Virus record (IMG/VR): IMGVR_UViG_3300029448_000459
Coordinates: 1-20,776 of that record
DNA length: 20,776 nt
From: a virus
Strand: one strand, 5' to 3'
Below are positions 8,087 to 20,739 of the stretch, in pieces (positions within the stretch are counted from its first letter, which is position 1; every line of letters starts with the position of its first letter). The position numbers were made by a program, and so were the translations under genes. Below the pieces are notes generated by a model, which searched no databases, was not told the DNA's origin, and saw nothing but the letters and a program-made list of their open reading frames with translations.

Positions 8087-10597
8087 ATGTATTCTCTTAA
8101 TGAGCTTACTATGATTTCTGATGGTGCAATAAGATGGGACAAACAAGAAGAACAACTTAGAAAAAATGGGATCTTAGGATCCATTGATACTCAAATAACT
8201 AAAGGTGTTCTTCCTCTGGTCGCACATGAGTTACTTACAGAAATTGCTACCGTTGCAACTAACAGAGGTGCAAAACCATTTTGGTTAAAAGCTCTGGAAA
8301 ACTTAGATGTAAAAACCACATCTTATATTGGTTTAAATTATGCATTTATCGGTGTAGGTCAGCAAACTGATGTTACCAACATTTGCATAAATATAGGCAA
8401 AGCAGTCTGTATTGAATTATGGTCTAAAGACTTTGAAACTACTAATAAGCCTTTGTTTGATCGTCTATTTAATATGGCTGTTCGTAATCATAATAGCCCT
8501 AGACACAGACTTAAAGCTATTTCTGCTGTCGCTCAAAGAGAAGGCTATGGTTTAAATAGATGGAATGCAGAACAACAACTTAATGTTGGTCAAGCTATTT
8601 TAAATGCTGTTCTTCATTCTTCAAAGCTATTTGAACTTTTTGAACTACCTAGAAAAAATGGTAAGACACAGCCTAAGCAATTAGGTCTTACTGAATTAGG
8701 TTCAAAACTAGTATCTGAATTAACTGAAGATGTTAGATGGTTGTCTCCTATTTTTAAACCTATGTTACAAAAACCTAAAGAGTGGACAGACTTTTCTACT
8801 GGTGCTTATCATGATGCTAAATTAGCTAGCTTGGTACCTCTAGTAAGAATGGCTCCTCATGAGCAAAAGCAACGCATTGATATGCGAACTAAGTCAGGTA
8901 AAATGGACAGAGTTTATGCTTCAATTAATGCTATTCAAAATACTGAACTAGCAATTAATAAAGTTGTCTATGAGCAAGTAAAAGCTGCATGGCATAGAGG
9001 AGATGTAATTAAAAAGTTTCCTCGCATGAAAAAAGTCAAGACTCCAAGTAAAGTAAATAACTGGGACGAGCTTGATACTAAGCAACGTAAAAAAGTAAAG
9101 AAAATAAAAGAGTCTATTGTTTTAAGAAATAGAGCAATTGATGCTGATATTGTAAACTTTACTTGTGATCTTCAAACTGCTGAAGACTTACTTAAGCACG
9201 ATAAATTTTATCAGCCACATAATTTAGATAAGCGTGGTCGCATTTATCCTATACCTACATTTAATCATCAGCGTGCTGATCACATAAGAGCTATGTTTCA
9301 GTTTGCTAAAGGTAAACCGTTAGGTAAAGAGGGTGCGTATTGGCTTGCAATTAGTGTAGCTAATAATGGTGACTTTAATAAAGTAAGTAAAAAAAGTTTA
9401 AATGATCGCATTGATTGGGTTAATGCAAATCAAAGATCAATTTATTTGATTGGCAAAAAACCTACACTAACTAGACATATATGGCAAAACGCTGATAAGC
9501 CTTTTAGTTTTCTTGCAGCTTGTATTGAGTTTGCAGGATACATGGAAGAAGGTGATAAATATGTGTCTTATTTACCTTGTTCACTTGATGGAACTAATTC
9601 AGGTGTTCAACATTATTGTGCCGCACTAAGAGATGCTGAAGGTGGCTCAACAGTAAATTTAGTACCTCATGAAAAGCCTGCTGATGTTTATCAAATAGTA
9701 GCAGATAATGTACTAGATCAAATTAGATCTGATACTGAAAATATTGAGATTGCTAAACTGTGGCTTAACTATGGTGTTACAAGATCTGTAGTTAAACGCA
9801 ATGTTATGACTTTTGCTTATTCATCTGAAAAGTATGGATTTAAGCAGCAGCAAATGGAAGATCTTATGAAACCACTAGCAGACGATGTGCTTGATGGAAT
9901 TTTAAGTGAACACCCATTTGGTGAAGACGGAGGTCATAAAGCAGCAAGTTATTTAGCTGATAAAGTTTGGAAAGCTGTCAACGTAGTAGTTAATAAAGCT
10001 GCTGTTGGCATGAAGTTTATTCAACGCTGTGCATCATTATGTGCACATGAAGCTAAACCACTTACTTGGACTACTCCAATCGGATTGCCTATTGTTCATG
10101 CATATCAACAATGGGATATAAATAGAGTACGCATATTTTTATATGATAAAGAAATAAACTTAGCTAATGCTAGTGTTAATAGCAAAGTTACGCCTAATGG
10201 TGATGTTTATAAATGTATTATGTGTAATATACGTACTAAGCCTAAAGGTACTATAGATAAAATTAAACAGCGCAATGCTGCTGCACCAAATTTTATTCAT
10301 AGTTTAGATGCAAGTCATCTTATGTTTACTGTTCTAGCAGGACTTGAAGATGGTATTGAAGATTTCTTATTAATTCATGACTCTTTTGCTACTCATATGG
10401 CAGATACTCAAAAGTTTTTCTATTTAATTAGAGAACAATTTGTAGCTATGTATGAGCATTTTGATGTCATGCAAGATCTTCATGATTCAACGTTTGAGCA
10501 GTTAAGTCCTAGTGGTCGAAATAATATTATTGATACACCAGAAAAAGGCAATCTCATTATAACTAAAGTATTGGAGAGTGACTATGCATTTGCGTAA
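8087..10597 (+). CDS. T7-type single-subunit DNA-directed RNA polymerase
   Basis: Transcribes phage genes from phage-specific promoters. 836 residues against 883 in T7. All catalytic motifs are visible. Motif A is SLDGTNSGVQHYCAALRD (D501, T7 D537). Motif B is RSVVKRNVMTFAYSSEKYGF (K570 and Y578, T7 K631 and Y639). Motif C is LLIHDSFATH (D765, T7 D812). PNFIHSLDASHL is the conserved stretch after the specificity-loop region, and the protein ends SDYAFA like T7's SDFAFA. The stretch between TTPIGLPIVHAY (662-673) and about 735 should hold the promoter-specificity loop and differs from T7, consistent with the altered promoter. Strong GGAGG upstream. The next gene overlaps its end. Confidence 0.97.
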   Translation: MYSLNELTMISDGAIRWDKQEEQLRKNGILGSIDTQITKGVLPLVAHELLTEIATVATNRGAKPFWLKALENLDVKTTSYIGLNYAFIGVGQQTDVTNICINIGKAVCIELWSKDFETTNKPLFDRLFNMAVRNHNSPRHRLKAISAVAQREGYGLNRWNAEQQLNVGQAILNAVLHSSKLFELFELPRKNGKTQPKQLGLTELGSKLVSELTEDVRWLSPIFKPMLQKPKEWTDFSTGAYHDAKLASLVPLVRMAPHEQKQRIDMRTKSGKMDRVYASINAIQNTELAINKVVYEQVKAAWHRGDVIKKFPRMKKVKTPSKVNNWDELDTKQRKKVKKIKESIVLRNRAIDADIVNFTCDLQTAEDLLKHDKFYQPHNLDKRGRIYPIPTFNHQRADHIRAMFQFAKGKPLGKEGAYWLAISVANNGDFNKVSKKSLNDRIDWVNANQRSIYLIGKKPTLTRHIWQNADKPFSFLAACIEFAGYMEEGDKYVSYLPCSLDGTNSGVQHYCAALRDAEGGSTVNLVPHEKPADVYQIVADNVLDQIRSDTENIEIAKLWLNYGVTRSVVKRNVMTFAYSSEKYGFKQQQMEDLMKPLADDVLDGILSEHPFGEDGGHKAASYLADKVWKAVNVVVNKAAVGMKFIQRCASLCAHEAKPLTWTTPIGLPIVHAYQQWDINRVRIFLYDKEINLANASVNSKVTPNGDVYKCIMCNIRTKPKGTIDKIKQRNAAAPNFIHSLDASHLMFTVLAGLEDGIEDFLLIHDSFATHMADTQKFFYLIREQFVAMYEHFDVMQDLHDSTFEQLSPSGRNNIIDTPEKGNLIITKVLESDYAFA

Positions 10598-11935: not shown

Positions 11936-11939
11936 ATAG

Positions 11940-11963
11940 CGGGGCTTCGGCCCCGTTTTTTTT
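11940..11963 (+). terminator. Rho-independent terminator closing the early unit
   Basis: CGGGGC-TTCG-GCCCCG with a UUCG tetraloop, then eight T. One of the most GC-rich stretches in the window. It separates the RNA polymerase/SSB/endonuclease unit from the nucleotide-metabolism genes, which start 10 bases later; I see no phage promoter between, so those genes rely on partial readthrough or on a promoter not detected. Confidence 0.95.
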
Positions 11964-11973
11964 AGGAGTTTAA

Positions 11974-12756
11974 ATGTTAGATTTGAACGCAGATATAGTT
12001 TGGAAACAAGCATTAGAGGATTGCGGAAAAGATTATCATTACGAAAGTAATCCTAGAAATCTTAAAATAAAAGAAAGAATTAATTATAATTATACTGTCA
12101 ATATGAAAGAACCATTAATCTGTAATTTAGAAAGAAATCTTAATTATGGGTTTATGTTTGGTGAAGCATCATGGATTTTAAAAGGTAGAAATGATTTAGA
12201 ATACATAGAAAAATTTATGAAAAACTACGCTAAATATAGTGACGATGGTTTTTCATTAAATGGTGCTTACGGTCCTAAAATTATGGATCAATTATCATGG
12301 GCAGCAAATGAACTTAAACAAGATAATGACTCAAGACGTTGCTATATAAATATTTGGCGAGAACGTCCAGGCGAAAGTAAAGATATTCCATGTACTACAG
12401 GTATGCAGTTTCTAATAAGAGATGGTTTGCTTAATGCTGTAGTTAATATGAGATCACAAGACATAGTTTACGGAATGACCTATGATGTATTTACATTTAC
12501 AATGGTCGCTAAAGCTCTTCAGCTATTACTGTACTCTAGTTATAATCTTATGGTTGATATAGGTTATCTTCATGTTAGAGCAGGTTCAGCTCATATATAT
12601 GAACCTGATTATGATAAAATTGATACTTGGATTAATAATAAAGCATTTAATAAAAAAGTACCTCTAACATTACAATCTGTTTTAAATTCTTCACTAACTG
12701 TAAATGATTTAGCAGATAAATTAAGTAACGCAGGTAAAGCACTTGGTAATAATTGA
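11974..12756 (+). CDS. Thymidylate-synthase-fold enzyme, probably dCMP (hydroxy)methylase
   Basis: TS-superfamily enzyme, 260 residues. Visible motifs are GEASWILKGRND (E64, TS 'ELLWFLKG'), NDSRRCYINIW (R121/R122, phosphate binding), DIPCTTGMQFLIRD (nucleophile C140), LNAVVNMRSQDIVYG (R160-S161) and AGSAHIYEPDYDKI (H207, Y209). Two positions separate it from true thymidylate synthase. The nucleophile is followed by Thr (PCT, as in T4 gp42 CTNT) rather than His (PCH). The Asn that reads uracil in TS is Asp171 (YGMTYDVF), as Asp179 in T4 dCMP hydroxymethylase. CTTGMQFLIRD and LNAVVNMRSQDIVYG are strikingly like gp42. I infer dCMP as substrate; 5-hydroxymethyl-dCMP or 5-methyl-dCMP as product cannot be told apart here. 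AGGAG upstream; 14-base overlap with the kinase gene. Confidence 0.82.
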   Translation: MLDLNADIVWKQALEDCGKDYHYESNPRNLKIKERINYNYTVNMKEPLICNLERNLNYGFMFGEASWILKGRNDLEYIEKFMKNYAKYSDDGFSLNGAYGPKIMDQLSWAANELKQDNDSRRCYINIWRERPGESKDIPCTTGMQFLIRDGLLNAVVNMRSQDIVYGMTYDVFTFTMVAKALQLLLYSSYNLMVDIGYLHVRAGSAHIYEPDYDKIDTWINNKAFNKKVPLTLQSVLNSSLTVNDLADKLSNAGKALGNN

Positions 12757-13240
12757 GGGTGCTGACGGTACAGGCAAGACTACTTTAAGTCATGCAATTG
12801 CAGACTATATAGGTGGTCAATATTTTCATTGTGGTTATCACAAAGACTGGAATATAGAAATTTATCATAGACATATAATTCACACTGCTGCTCGTTTAGA
12901 ACAGCAAGCAAATATACCATGTATTATTGATCGGCTTGCATTAAGTGAAGAAGTTTATGGTCATGCTTACAGAAGTTATCCATCTTATAATACAAGTAAT
13001 TTTATGAATGAAATTATACGAGATTACAAGCCAATGCTTATTCTTTGTAGCAATGAAAATGCTGAAAAAAATCATGAGCTTAATAAAGAAAAACGTACTG
13101 AAATGTTTGATACAATTAAAGGTATTTCAGAAGCATACCAAAGGCTTGTTTCAATGGGTAGGTATGGTCAGTGGTTTAAATATGATTTTGATAAAAACGA
13201 TATGAATAATTTTATTTCAAGTTATTTTAAGGAGAATTAA
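12743..13240 (+). CDS. Deoxynucleoside monophosphate kinase (thymidylate-kinase-like)
   Basis: Phosphorylates a dNMP to dNDP. 165 residues. Walker A GADGTGKTT (residues 6-14) lies at the extreme N-terminus after MVIIE, a DR motif in CIIDRLALSEEVYG is as in thymidylate kinases, and a Lys/Arg-rich lid-like segment lies around NKEKRTEMF. Because the P-loop begins at residue 6, the only sensible start is the TTG at 12743 inside the end of the preceding gene, an unusual start codon with weak Shine-Dalgarno (AGGT), implying translational coupling. Coming directly after the dCMP-type enzyme it is the natural candidate to phosphorylate the modified dCMP, as gp1 does in T4. A plain dTMP kinase is the alternative. 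Confidence 0.82.
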   Translation: MVIIEGADGTGKTTLSHAIADYIGGQYFHCGYHKDWNIEIYHRHIIHTAARLEQQANIPCIIDRLALSEEVYGHAYRSYPSYNTSNFMNEIIRDYKPMLILCSNENAEKNHELNKEKRTEMFDTIKGISEAYQRLVSMGRYGQWFKYDFDKNDMNNFISSYFKEN

Positions 13241-13629
13241 TGTCTACATTAGTTGCAGATGTTTATGCTTTACAAGCAAAATATGGTTTTAATCACGAGC
13301 CATTAAATCGTGAAAAATTAGCACTTAGAGTTGATCAAGTTGAAGAAGAATTTGATGAACTACTTTCTGCATTTTCTGAAAATGATGCTGAAGCAATGGT
13401 TGATGCTTTAATTGATATTACGGTGTTTGCACTAGGTACTCTTGCAATTGCAGGTGTTGACGTAGAAGAGGCGTGGCAAGAAGTTCATTTAGCCAACATG
13501 TCTAAAATACGCGGCACTAAAGAGGGTCGTGACCACAGTGGTGGTTGGGATTTAATTAAACCTAAAAATTGGGAGGCACCAGATCATGGAAACAACCTCG
13601 GCTTCATTCCAGACGCACTCGAGTTGTGA
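13240..13629 (+). CDS. MazG-like all-alpha NTP pyrophosphatase
   Basis: Hydrolyses (d)NTP to (d)NMP and PPi. 129 residues. The metal-binding motif is VEEEFDELL (E36, E37, E40), with a second acidic pair D55 and D59 in MVDALIDITVFALG, then EAWQEVHLANMSKI, the standard end of this fold. The C-terminal GRDHSGGWDLIKPKNW is typical of phage members. AAGGAGAA upstream and a TAATG overlap with the kinase. In this neighbourhood it could be a dCTPase that removes unmodified dCTP and feeds dCMP to the TS-fold enzyme, the job of T4 gp56, although gp56 specificity cannot be read from the motif. A general house-cleaning or ppGpp-related role, as proposed for cyanophage MazG, is the alternative. Confidence 0.85.
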   Translation: MSTLVADVYALQAKYGFNHEPLNREKLALRVDQVEEEFDELLSAFSENDAEAMVDALIDITVFALGTLAIAGVDVEEAWQEVHLANMSKIRGTKEGRDHSGGWDLIKPKNWEAPDHGNNLGFIPDALEL

Positions 13630-15181
13630 AGCATGTGGAAGTAGCGATGCAAAGGCCATTTACGATGATGGCCATGCATACTGCTTTTCATGTAACACAT
13701 ATTATGGAGGAGAAGATCAAGAACATAATAGCACGCCAACTGAGTTCTCCAAAACTACGGCAGCGAATAACCAAGCAGCGCAAGCGGTATACTCGCAAGG
13801 TAAAATTCAAGAACTCAAAAGCCGAAATATCTCAGCTGATACAGCGAGGCATTTCGGCTATAAAGTTGGTAGTGGTAGACATCTTGCTCCTTATTTTAAA
13901 AATGGAAAACTTGTTGCGCTTAAGACACGCGACCAAAATAAAAATTTTAGTGTTGTTGGTGAAGGTTCGAAGTTACCACTCTTTGGACAAAACCTACAAA
14001 GCAAAGGTAAAAGACTATTTGTAGTAGAAGGTGAACTAGATGCACTTTCTTTATCTCAGGCATTAGGAAATAAATGGCCTGTAGTTTCTGTACCTAATGG
14101 AGCTAAGTCAGCACCAGATGCTATTAGAAGAGAACTAGAATATATTATGAACTTTGAGACAGTTGTCTTTATGTTTGATGAAGATAAACCTGGTCAAGAA
14201 GCAGTTGCTCAATGTGCTGAGTTACTCGAACCAGGCAAAGCTCATGTAGCTAATTTACCTCTAAAAGATGCAAGCGAAATGCTTAAAAATAATAGAGTTA
14301 AAGAGTTAATAAAAGCGGCATGGGACGCTCCTGTTTATAGACCTGATGGTATAGTAGCAGCAAAAGATCTTTTCCACTTAGTGGCAACGGAAGATAAGGT
14401 ATCAAGTGTTCCTTATCCTTACGATTTTATGAATGATAAAACAAAAGGTCTTAGAAAAGGTGAACTTGTAACTATTACCGCAGGTAGTGGTATTGGTAAG
14501 TCAGCTTTTGTTCGTGAAATTGCTCATCACTTACTAACTCAAGGAGATAAAGTTGGTTTACTCTTTTTGGAAGAAAGTATTAAAAGAACTCTTACAGGTT
14601 TGGTCAGTATTGATATTAATAAACCACTTCACATTGATAGATCAGGTGTTGAAGTGGACCAAATACGTAAGTCTTTTGACAATTTGTTCTCTAATGGGAA
14701 CTGTTTTGTTTACGATCATTTTGGCAGCGTTACTCTCGAGCATGTCCTTGCTAAGTTACGTTACTTGGCCCACGGAGAACAGTGTAATTGGATTATCATT
14801 GATCATCTTTCCATTATGGTTAGTGGTCTTGATGTACCTGATGAGAGAAAAGCCATCGATATGATAATGACTAAACTGCGTACATTTGTTGAAGAAACAG
14901 GTGTAGGTATGTTGTTAGTTTCACACTTGCGACGACCTGAAGGAAACAAAGGTTTTGAAGATGGTGCGCAGGTATCACTAAATTCTTTGCGAGGTTCTCA
15001 TTCAATAGGTCAATTATCAGATATGGTAATTGGTTTAGAACGTGATCAACAATCGCAAAGCAATGAAACTGTAGTGCGTGTAGTTAAAAATAGATTTACA
15101 GGTGCAACAGGTATGGCCGGAAGCCTCATGTATAATGAGGAAACTGGTAGATTGGAGAGCATAGATGCAGTTGGTTTTTGA
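13586..15181 (+). CDS. Bifunctional DNA primase-helicase (T7 gp4-like)
   Basis: Unwinds the fork and lays RNA primers. 531 residues (T7 566). The N-terminal zinc-binding domain carries C14-x2-C17 and C33-x2-C36. The TOPRIM primase core has FVVEGELDALSL (E148) and MFDEDKPG (D198, D200). The RecA-type helicase has Walker A TAGSGIGKS (GSGIGKS at 300-306), Walker B NWIIIDHLS (D406), VSHLRRPEG, and RVVKNRFTGATG as the likely arginine-finger region. Both halves are intact, so this is the full primase-helicase. The ATG lies within the end of the pyrophosphatase gene (44-base overlap) with GGGAGG 9 bases upstream. It overlaps DNA polymerase by 17 bases. Confidence 0.95.
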   Translation: METTSASFQTHSSCEACGSSDAKAIYDDGHAYCFSCNTYYGGEDQEHNSTPTEFSKTTAANNQAAQAVYSQGKIQELKSRNISADTARHFGYKVGSGRHLAPYFKNGKLVALKTRDQNKNFSVVGEGSKLPLFGQNLQSKGKRLFVVEGELDALSLSQALGNKWPVVSVPNGAKSAPDAIRRELEYIMNFETVVFMFDEDKPGQEAVAQCAELLEPGKAHVANLPLKDASEMLKNNRVKELIKAAWDAPVYRPDGIVAAKDLFHLVATEDKVSSVPYPYDFMNDKTKGLRKGELVTITAGSGIGKSAFVREIAHHLLTQGDKVGLLFLEESIKRTLTGLVSIDINKPLHIDRSGVEVDQIRKSFDNLFSNGNCFVYDHFGSVTLEHVLAKLRYLAHGEQCNWIIIDHLSIMVSGLDVPDERKAIDMIMTKLRTFVEETGVGMLLVSHLRRPEGNKGFEDGAQVSLNSLRGSHSIGQLSDMVIGLERDQQSQSNETVVRVVKNRFTGATGMAGSLMYNEETGRLESIDAVGF

Positions 15182-18843: not shown

Positions 18844-20739
18844 ATGAGTACTATAGAACAAACCTATGGTGACTTTATACATAAGTCACGTTATGCAAGA
18901 TACTTAGACAACCAACAGAGAAGAGAGACTTGGGAAGAAACCGTAGATCGATATATCGATTTTATGGAAACCAAAGTACCTGAAATAGGTAGAGAAACTT
19001 TTGTCGAGCTTAAACAAGCTATCGTAAATAAAGATGTTATGCCATCGATGAGAGCCTTAATGACTTCAGGTCCTGCATTAGACCGTGATAATACTTGTGG
19101 TTACAATTGCTCGTATTTAGTTGCTGATGATCCCAAAGCTTTCGATGAAGCTATGTTTATACTAATGTGTGGTACTGGTGTAGGCTTTTCTGTAGAGAGA
19201 CAATATATCTCTAAGTTACCTGAGATCCCTGAGAAGTTATATAAAACTGATACATGCATTAGTGTGTCTGATAGTAAAGAGGGTTGGTCTAAGGCTTTTA
19301 GAATGCTGATAGCATTGCTATATGCAGGCGAAATACCAACATGGGATATATCAAAGGTACGAGCAGCAGGAGAACGACTAAAACAGTTCGGTGGAAGAGC
19401 TTCTGGTCCTGAACCGTTGGTAGAGTTATTTAAGTTTACTGTTGCATTATTTAAGAAAGCTAAAGGTAGACGATTGTCTTCCATAGAAGCTCACGATTTA
19501 TTTTGTAAGATAGGGGAAATTGTCGTCGTAGGAGGAGTGCGCAGAAGCGCTATGATAAGTCTTAGTAACTTAACTGACGACAGAATGAGACATGCTAAGA
19601 GTGGCGAATGGTGGAACCAAAACGGCCAAAGAGCCTTAGCTAATAATTCAGTATCGTTTACTGAGAAACCTGATGTAGGTGCATTCTTACGAGAATGGAC
19701 ATCGCTATATGAAAGCAAGTCAGGTGAAAGAGGAATTTTTAATAGAACGGCTAGTCAGAAACAAGCCGAAAAGTATGGTAAAAGAGATCCGAACTATGAG
19801 TTTGGTACTAATCCATGTTCAGAAATAATTTTACGACCATATCAGTTTTGTAATTTAACAGAGGTCGTTATAAGACCAAGTGATAATGAAGATAGCCTTG
19901 TAAATAAAGTTAGGCTCGCCACTATACTTGGCACAATACAATCGAAACTAACTCACTTTCCATATTTACGTAAAGTATGGCAAAAGAATACTGAGGAAGA
20001 AAGGTTGTTAGGAGTATCGTTAACAGGTATTTTAGATAACGAGATCACCTCAGGTATTGATAAGACTGTTGGCCTCGAAGGTTTGTTACATATTATGCGT
20101 CATGTAGCTGATGAAACAAATATTGAATACGCTGAGATGTTAGGTATCCCAAGATCGGCTGCTATTACTTGCGTAAAACCAAGTGGTACGGTTAGTCAGC
20201 TAGTTAATGCTGCATCGGGTATTCATACTCGTCATAGTAGGTATTATTTGCGTACGGTTAGAGGAGATAATAAAGATCCGTTAACTCAGCATATGATAAA
20301 TGTTGGAGTTCATCACGAACCCTGTGTTATGAAACCTGATACGACTACTGTATTTACGTTTCCAATAGAAGCGCCTGAGGGTTGCTTAACTCGTGAAGAC
20401 TTAACTGCCGTTGAGCACCTCGAGTTATGGAAAACGTATCAAGAAAATTGGTGCGAACATAAACCATCAATCACGGTTAGTGTAAAAGAAGATGAATGGC
20501 CAGAAGTTGGTTCGTGGGTATTTAATAACTTTGACGATATATCAGGTATTTCATTTTTACCTTACGATGGTGGTAGTTATCGACAAGCACCTTACCAAGA
20601 AATTGAACGAGAAGAATATCTGGAATTCGCAGGTAGATTTCCGTCTAACATCGACTGGTCATCAATGATAGAAGTCGAAGATTTAACAACTGGATCGCAA
20701 GAGTTAGCCTGTTCGTCAGGTAGTTGCGAAATATTATAG
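18844..20739 (+). CDS. Adenosylcobalamin-dependent (class II, monomeric) ribonucleotide reductase
   Basis: Reduces ribonucleotides to deoxyribonucleotides; the monomeric class acts on triphosphates. 631 residues, against about 740 for Lactobacillus RTPR. Seen: TCGYNCSYL (first redox Cys of the active site), CGTGVGFSVERQ, GGVRRSAMISLSNL, the radical-site motif TNPCSEIILRPYQFCNLTEV (N, radical Cys, Glu, then the partner redox Cys), CVKPSGTVSQLVNAASGIH, and the C-terminal reductant shuttle CSSGSC (C-x4-C) before the final EIL. No separate beta subunit or tyrosyl-radical partner is expected. Its cobalamin need must be met by the host. AAGGA lies 11-12 bases before the ATG. Confidence 0.92.
   Translation: MSTIEQTYGDFIHKSRYARYLDNQQRRETWEETVDRYIDFMETKVPEIGRETFVELKQAIVNKDVMPSMRALMTSGPALDRDNTCGYNCSYLVADDPKAFDEAMFILMCGTGVGFSVERQYISKLPEIPEKLYKTDTCISVSDSKEGWSKAFRMLIALLYAGEIPTWDISKVRAAGERLKQFGGRASGPEPLVELFKFTVALFKKAKGRRLSSIEAHDLFCKIGEIVVVGGVRRSAMISLSNLTDDRMRHAKSGEWWNQNGQRALANNSVSFTEKPDVGAFLREWTSLYESKSGERGIFNRTASQKQAEKYGKRDPNYEFGTNPCSEIILRPYQFCNLTEVVIRPSDNEDSLVNKVRLATILGTIQSKLTHFPYLRKVWQKNTEEERLLGVSLTGILDNEITSGIDKTVGLEGLLHIMRHVADETNIEYAEMLGIPRSAAITCVKPSGTVSQLVNAASGIHTRHSRYYLRTVRGDNKDPLTQHMINVGVHHEPCVMKPDTTTVFTFPIEAPEGCLTREDLTAVEHLELWKTYQENWCEHKPSITVSVKEDEWPEVGSWVFNNFDDISGISFLPYDGGSYRQAPYQEIEREEYLEFAGRFPSNIDWSSMIEVEDLTTGSQELACSSGSCEIL

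Follow-up and report, generated by a model that had tools for sequence, protein, structure and literature searches.

A predicted cytosine-replacement cassette of three overlapping genes in a marine phage with T7-type replication genes

Three overlapping genes, occupying 1.66 kb (positions 11974-13629) in the genome of a marine phage whose replication genes are T7-like, probably constitute a compact cytosine-replacement cassette, in which an enzyme of the thymidylate synthase (TS) fold would make 5-hydroxymethyl-dCMP (5hm-dCMP). This reading is built on the order and overlap of the genes, on the predicted folds and active-site residues of their products, on conserved linkage, and on fusions of MazG with the kinase; from these we infer the activity of each enzyme, the order of the steps, and both the presence and the extent of 5-hydroxymethylcytosine (5hmC) in the virion. 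A first-pass annotation of the same DNA had proposed dCMP modification, and nearly all of the residue and context tests that were run supported it.

Exchanging cytosine for 5hmC is a known phage defence against host restriction enzymes, and phages with T7-type replication are usually assumed to have ordinary DNA. The genes in question are routinely annotated as serving thymidylate synthesis, as they are in HTVC200P and HTVC119P, two pelagiphages in culture. If our reading is correct, a recognisable group of marine phages has cytosine-modified DNA, which would bear on escape from restriction and CRISPR, on bias in sequencing libraries, and on the counting of such phages.

Genome context of the cassette

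The window, i.e., the whole stretch of 20,776 nucleotides that was analysed, is part of a 23,383-base IMG/VR record. Its genes are ordered integrase, T7-type RNA polymerase, gp2.5-like single-stranded DNA-binding protein (SSB), endonuclease I, a small winged-helix gene, the cassette trio, primase/helicase, DNA polymerase A, an exonuclease, and a class II ribonucleotide reductase, an order similar to that of marine phages with T7-type replication (Table 1). The location of three overlapping genes directly ahead of the replication genes was confirmed in that all three ORFs are intact, and each overlaps the next: the TS and kinase genes by 14 nt, the kinase stop and the MazG ATG by 1 nt, and MazG and the primase/helicase start by 44 nt. 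In close relatives, dN lay far below dS for every gene with an estimable dS (that of the kinase relative to L011 was not estimable); relative to L003, dN and dS were 0.05 and 0.38 for the kinase and 0.05 and 0.36 for MazG. The cassette genes are under purifying selection, and since dN is so far below dS and the 14-nt overlap is kept in near relatives, the ORFs are not due to chance.

Table 1. Features of the window and residues noted in the TS-fold enzyme.
Feature	Coordinates	Strand	Details
Terminator-like hairpin and T run, directly 5' of the cassette ribosome-binding site	11938..11957	+	kept in relatives
TS-fold enzyme, predicted dCMP 5-hydroxymethylase	11974..12756	+	260 aa, ATG; PF00303 64.8 bits
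Thymidylate-kinase-like nucleotide kinase, predicted 5hm-dCMP kinase	12743..13240	+	165 aa, TTG; phrog_761 'thymidylate kinase' 8.6e-13
MazG/PRA-PH all-alpha NTP pyrophosphatase, predicted to convert dCTP (and dUTP) to dNMP	13240..13629	+	129 aa, ATG; PF01503 44 bits, above cutoff
T7-type primase/helicase, 3' of cassette	13586..15181	+	phrog_239 1.1e-184
T7-type single-subunit RNA polymerase	8087..10597	+	tblastn vs phage RNA polymerases, 31-33% over 99%
Class II ribonucleotide reductase	18844..20739	+	TIGR02505 302.9 bits, slightly under cutoff 340
Residues noted in the TS-fold enzyme			E64, Y99, R121, R122, D137, C140, T141, R160, S161, D163, D171, H207, Y209

Both arms of the hairpin 5' of the cassette are changed in L059, L061, and L064, yet the stem stays GC-rich and has a TTCG loop; a functional terminator or attenuator is suggested. 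The phage does carry a reductase, as first annotated, and it is nearest to the adenosylcobalamin ribonucleoside-triphosphate reductase family. The window had been described as having no glucosyltransferase; we likewise saw no glycosyltransferase there and found no sugar-handling genes nearby.

The TS-fold enzyme

The AlphaFold2 model of the first cassette protein (pLDDT 93.2, pTM 0.92) has a TS fold, with Z scores of 22-25 to TS-superfamily structures. MilA, the CMP 5-hydroxymethylase of mildiomycin biosynthesis, was the best match both by sequence and in the PDB (Z 25.5, 30% identity across the structural alignment); the TS-fold dCMP hydroxylases 9iqc and 9iqu came next (Z 22-23), with thymidylate synthases after them.

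The dCMP-type residues attributed to this enzyme from the outset were verified at Cys140, Asp171, Asp137, Thr141, and the Arg121/Ser161 pair. Cys140 corresponds to the catalytic Cys148 of T4 gp42, and Asp171 corresponds to Asn177 of E. coli TS and to the cytosine-selecting Asp179 of gp42; Asp or Asn at this site sets the choice between dCMP and dUMP (PMC8670742, PMC6400193). The Asp was present in all relatives examined, including a set found by search patterns that did not contain it; a second relative search used one pattern containing the Asp, which makes its conservation in that set partly a product of the search. Asp137 lies at -3 from Cys140; it too is present in all relatives examined and is equivalent to the water-activating Asp145 of gp42, which is required for hydroxymethylation: the D145N mutant yields no 5hm-dCMP, and TS has Leu at that position (PMC6400193). 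SPO1 gp29, annotated as a dUMP hydroxymethylase, and the phage Ab18 homologue also have Asp at -3. The residue after the Cys is Thr141, as in gp42, where TS has His, and D137, D163, and Y209 are constant across the relatives. Arg121 and Ser161 are a pair of the deoxyribose type, favouring dCMP over CMP. MilA has Lys133 and Ala176 for CMP, and swapping both to the deoxy type turned it to dCMP (PMC5175136); a CMP hydroxymethylase of the MilA/BcmA kind was rejected on the basis of this pair.

Ser94 of the published T4 signature, two residues before Tyr96, is replaced by Gly97 in the window protein (Gly97-Ala-Tyr99), and Ab18 and SPO1 gp29 are likewise without Ser at this position. Because of the change to Gly97, the window protein was kept out of the strict T4 subfamily, for which it serves only as a working analogue. 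There is an alignment gap at TS Trp80, and the TS C-terminal closing residue and tail have no counterpart. In the tree, the window protein groups with Asp-type phage enzymes in a clade that neighbours SPO1 gp29 and the Ab18 homologue (96/89), and T4 gp42 is placed elsewhere; because gp42 and Xp15 sit on very long branches, their positions are unsure. Asp-type enzymes may have arisen twice, and the window enzyme was judged to be gp42-like in function, not close kin.

The TS gene seems to have been swapped by recombination independently of its neighbours. Compared with the window, L008 shares 99% of the TS protein over the part present and just 84% of the kinase, and the corresponding values for L003 are 79% and 89%. 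In L010:2708-3480, the TS gene lies in two frames with a break near residue 208, reflecting either a real frameshift or an assembly error.

The kinase and the MazG pyrophosphatase

The AlphaFold2 model of the kinase (pLDDT 94.6) best matches YorR, which is encoded by a B. subtilis prophage (Z 15.4), and next thymidylate kinases at Z about 14; YorR and the thymidylate kinases together span Z 13-15. Residues G6, D8, G11, K12, T14, D63, R64, S68, E69, and Y72 are invariant; they include parts of the P-loop GxxGxGKT, found as G6-A-D-G-T-G-K-T-T, and the DR motif, D63-R64. Sequence similarity to T4 gp1 is confined to the P-loop (5.4 bits), and descent from the T4 gene thus found no support for the kinase; as judged from sequence, it is not a gp1 orthologue. 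T4 gp1 does not figure in the list of fold matches to the kinase model, an absence that carries no weight against kinship. The RB69 cluster (L209:9048-11214), with a TS-fold gene of the AfhB type, contains a relative of the window kinase (profile E 1e-9) that is likewise thymidylate-kinase-like, a hint that kinases of this type commonly serve modified dCMP.

The third gene product was correctly named a MazG-type pyrophosphatase: its PF01503 match is accompanied by an intact metal-binding motif (ExxE and DxxxD), and E36, E37, E40, D55, D59, N86, and K89 are invariant. Its nearest solved relatives are the DR2231 MazG-like enzymes, DR2231 itself being a dUTP-preferring enzyme. Similarity to T4 gp56 was borderline (4.4 bits over the metal-site region), and the two belong to different Pfam families (PF01503 and PF08761, respectively). 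The substrates of the window kinase and MazG are not readable from sequence, but cyanophage MazG prefers dGTP and dCTP (PMC6850273), and dCTP hydrolysis by the window MazG is therefore plausible.

Conservation of the three-gene module

TS sequences more than 90% identical were removed, leaving 46 relatives including the window, and a gene was counted as linked if it lay within 3 kb of the TS gene and on the same strand. The proposed survey of whether the trio stays together found that it largely does: the kinase was linked in 41/46 relatives, MazG in 37/46, and both in 34/46. At 58 viral control loci, made non-redundant and encoding a canonical ThyA, the respective counts were 0/58, 1/58, and 0/58. 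All of these linkage counts were obtained with kinase and MazG profiles that were built from this family and would miss unrelated kinases near the control genes. Asn177, His147, and Leu143 occur in all 58 canonical phage ThyA proteins, and cytosine-type residues in none. Gene order and orientation vary, from TS-kinase-MazG in the window to MazG-kinase-TS in distant phages, but linkage is kept, and in both L099 and L116 MazG and the kinase are fused as one protein directly before the TS gene. The TS-fold gene, the kinase, and MazG are a real module. A simple rule for re-annotating many 'thymidylate synthase' genes would follow from the hydroxymethylase reading: Asp at the position of TS Asn177 and Asp at Cys-3, beside a small kinase and MazG. 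Cultured relatives exist in which the residue rule can be tested.

Comparison with known phages

The AXL3 (Stenotrophomonas) and PW916 (Pseudoxanthomonas) cluster has the same three homologous genes, adjacent as in the window, and the active-site residues are the same as those of the window TS-fold enzyme. These phages differ in being siphophages with reversed gene order, a TS identity of about 38%, and additional genes for a dCMP deaminase, a methyltransferase, and ThyX; the AXL3 kinase is also larger, at 327 amino acids. Of 37 restriction enzymes, only TasI and Tru1I, both with A/T-only sites, cut AXL3 DNA, which resists the other 35; the AXL3 authors read the genes as thymidylate synthesis, leaving modification open, and a separate ThyX-type protein is present (PMC7504290). 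The PW916 authors likewise read the cluster as thymidylate synthesis. The methyltransferase and the dCMP deaminase may contribute to the restriction resistance of AXL3. ThyX was not found in the window record, its relatives, HTVC200P, or HTVC119P, nor was dCMP deaminase, save in one distant relative; as far as the records reach, the extra genes of AXL3 are therefore not in the window version.

The Votkovvirus pelagiphages HTVC200P and HTVC119P and the uncultured S28C10 (AP013540) resemble the window phage in being marine, in carrying an integrase and T7-type RNA polymerase and replication genes, and in having a kinase and a TS-like gene immediately before the primase. Unlike in the window, a PF01503 gene was not detected in either cultured relative; MazG is therefore either not needed in every phage or replaced in some. 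S28C10 has the full set before its primase, MazG, kinase, and 'thyA', together with a dCMP deaminase. Its TS (L227:5473-6231) offers a natural contrast to the window enzyme, for the cytosine-type Asp is combined with Leu at -3 and Tyr at 147, and because of this combination the S28C10 cassette may make 5-methylcytosine.

In T4, gp42, gp1, and gp56 have the same activities as those predicted for the window trio, and the window enzyme matches gp42 at Cys148, at Asp179, at Asp145, and at the Thr that follows the Cys; however, the T4 genes lie far from one another (gp56 at 16 kb, gp42 at 25 kb, and gp1 at 75 kb), whereas those of the window are adjacent, the T4 Ser94 is Gly in the window, and no glucosyltransferase was seen there. 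The 'T4-like' label of the first-pass annotation thus holds for pathway and function but not for descent, given the P-loop-only similarity of the kinase to gp1, the borderline match to gp56, and a TS-fold protein to which MilA and pelagiphage proteins are closer than gp42 is.

In Xp15, a carbamoyltransferase accompanies a related TS of the Asp type and a hydrolase of the PF01503 type. In the MetaGPA study, the TS domain was the top association with cytosine-modified contigs; it was mostly of the Asp177 type and co-occurred with PF01503 (PMC8670742). DNA hypermodification, with a gene content pointing to thymine, was proposed earlier for other uncultured pelagiphages (PMC9599517). The arrangement described here is not unique, as it is already in the deposited genomes of S28C10, AXL3, and PW916 under the label of thymidylate synthesis, and because of the AXL3, MetaGPA, and S28C10 evidence the cytosine-replacement cassette must be regarded as a known kind. 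New here are this member, the recognition of marine 'thymidylate synthase' genes as being of the cytosine type, and the quantified module.

Proposed pathway and alternatives

In the proposed pathway, MazG would hydrolyse dCTP to dCMP, thereby lowering normal dCTP and supplying substrate; a reductase of the triphosphate type would hand dCTP straight to it. The TS-fold enzyme would then place a hydroxymethyl group from methylene-tetrahydrofolate onto C5 of dCMP, with Cys140 attacking C6, Asp171 recognising and protonating the cytosine ring, and Asp137 activating water. The kinase would phosphorylate 5hm-dCMP, host NDP kinase would finish 5hm-dCTP, and incorporation by the phage DNA polymerase would yield virion DNA with bare 5hmC. 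Points that weigh against this pathway are the Gly97 in place of T4 Ser94, the lack of a PF01503 match in HTVC200P and HTVC119P, the further AXL3 genes that may share in its resistance, and the dUTP preference of DR2231.

The database labels 'thymidylate synthase' and 'thymidylate kinase', the thymidylate-kinase-like fold of the kinase, and the AXL3 and PW916 authors' own reading all agree with an ordinary thymidylate supply, whereby the TS-fold enzyme would methylate dUMP, the kinase would act on dTMP, and MazG would be a dUTPase, providing more dTTP for an AT-rich genome. That is nevertheless very improbable, as the substitutions Asn177Asp, His147Thr, and Leu143Asp were each found in 0/58 canonical TS proteins, the C-terminal closing residue has no counterpart, and AXL3 has its separate ThyX-type protein besides. 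Production of 5-methyl-dCMP by an Asp-type dCMP methylase, giving DNA with 5-methylcytosine, is in turn quite unlikely: the Asn177Asp change in TS alone gives a dCMP methylase, according to the literature as cited in PMC8670742, but the window enzyme has Asp137 at the water-activating site, a gap at Trp80, no TS tail, and a tree position beside hydroxymethylases, and a possible methylase-like form, that of S28C10 with Leu at -3, looks different. We give hardly any credence to a flavin-dependent dCMP 5-hydroxylase of the AfhB/RB69 ORF048c type, making 5-hydroxycytosine that might later be glycosylated, even though 9iqc/9iqu are the next-best structural family and the RB69 cluster also has a related kinase gene. 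In the RB69-type enzyme, Glu stands at -3, and Asn, Val, and Phe take the place of the pterin-contacting Asp163, of Gly167, and of Tyr209, respectively, whereas the window enzyme has the hydroxymethylase residue at all four positions, and no sugar-handling genes were found nearby.

A further possibility keeps the dCMP hydroxymethylase but has 5hmC either partial or further modified by an unrecognised small protein. Xp15, with its carbamoyltransferase beside an Asp-type TS and a PF01503-type hydrolase, is a precedent of sorts, carbamoylated 5hmC was shown by MetaGPA (PMC8670742), and no function could be assigned to several minus-strand ORFs of the window record and its relative. Against further modification, all unassigned ORFs outside the tail and virion genes are of 181 amino acids or fewer in a possibly incomplete 39.8-kb relative (G002, comprising L035 and L036). 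To our knowledge, glycosyl- and carbamoyltransferases on record are all larger. Partial or further-modified 5hmC is thus unlikely but deserves some weight, and, because the relative, though possibly incomplete as a contig, has no unassigned non-virion ORF above that size, bare 5hmC is the simplest prediction of the hydroxymethylase reading. We are evenly divided on the fullest version of that reading, namely, that marine podoviruses of one lineage, which carry an integrase and T7-type genes for replication and transcription, replace most or all cytosine by bare, unglycosylated 5hmC through a minimal three-gene operon with a kinase that is not T4-orthologous, and that T7-type RNA and DNA polymerases work on 5hmC DNA.

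Virion genes

The designation as a T7-type podovirus agrees with the RNA polymerase, SSB, endonuclease I, primase-helicase, and DNA polymerase A of the window phage, but it may not extend to the virion genes, which lie outside the window: the portal (phrog_1216) and capsid (phrog_1328) of the 39.8-kb relative had no match in the T7-type pelagiphage HTVC200P. The virion region of the same relative includes a 1751-amino acid ORF (L036:7962-13214) with a C-terminal match to the single-subunit RNA polymerase family PF00940 (39 bits, cutoff 22). An early RNA polymerase of the T7 type is encoded by this phage as well, and the large ORF is possibly a virion-carried polymerase or the remnant of one.
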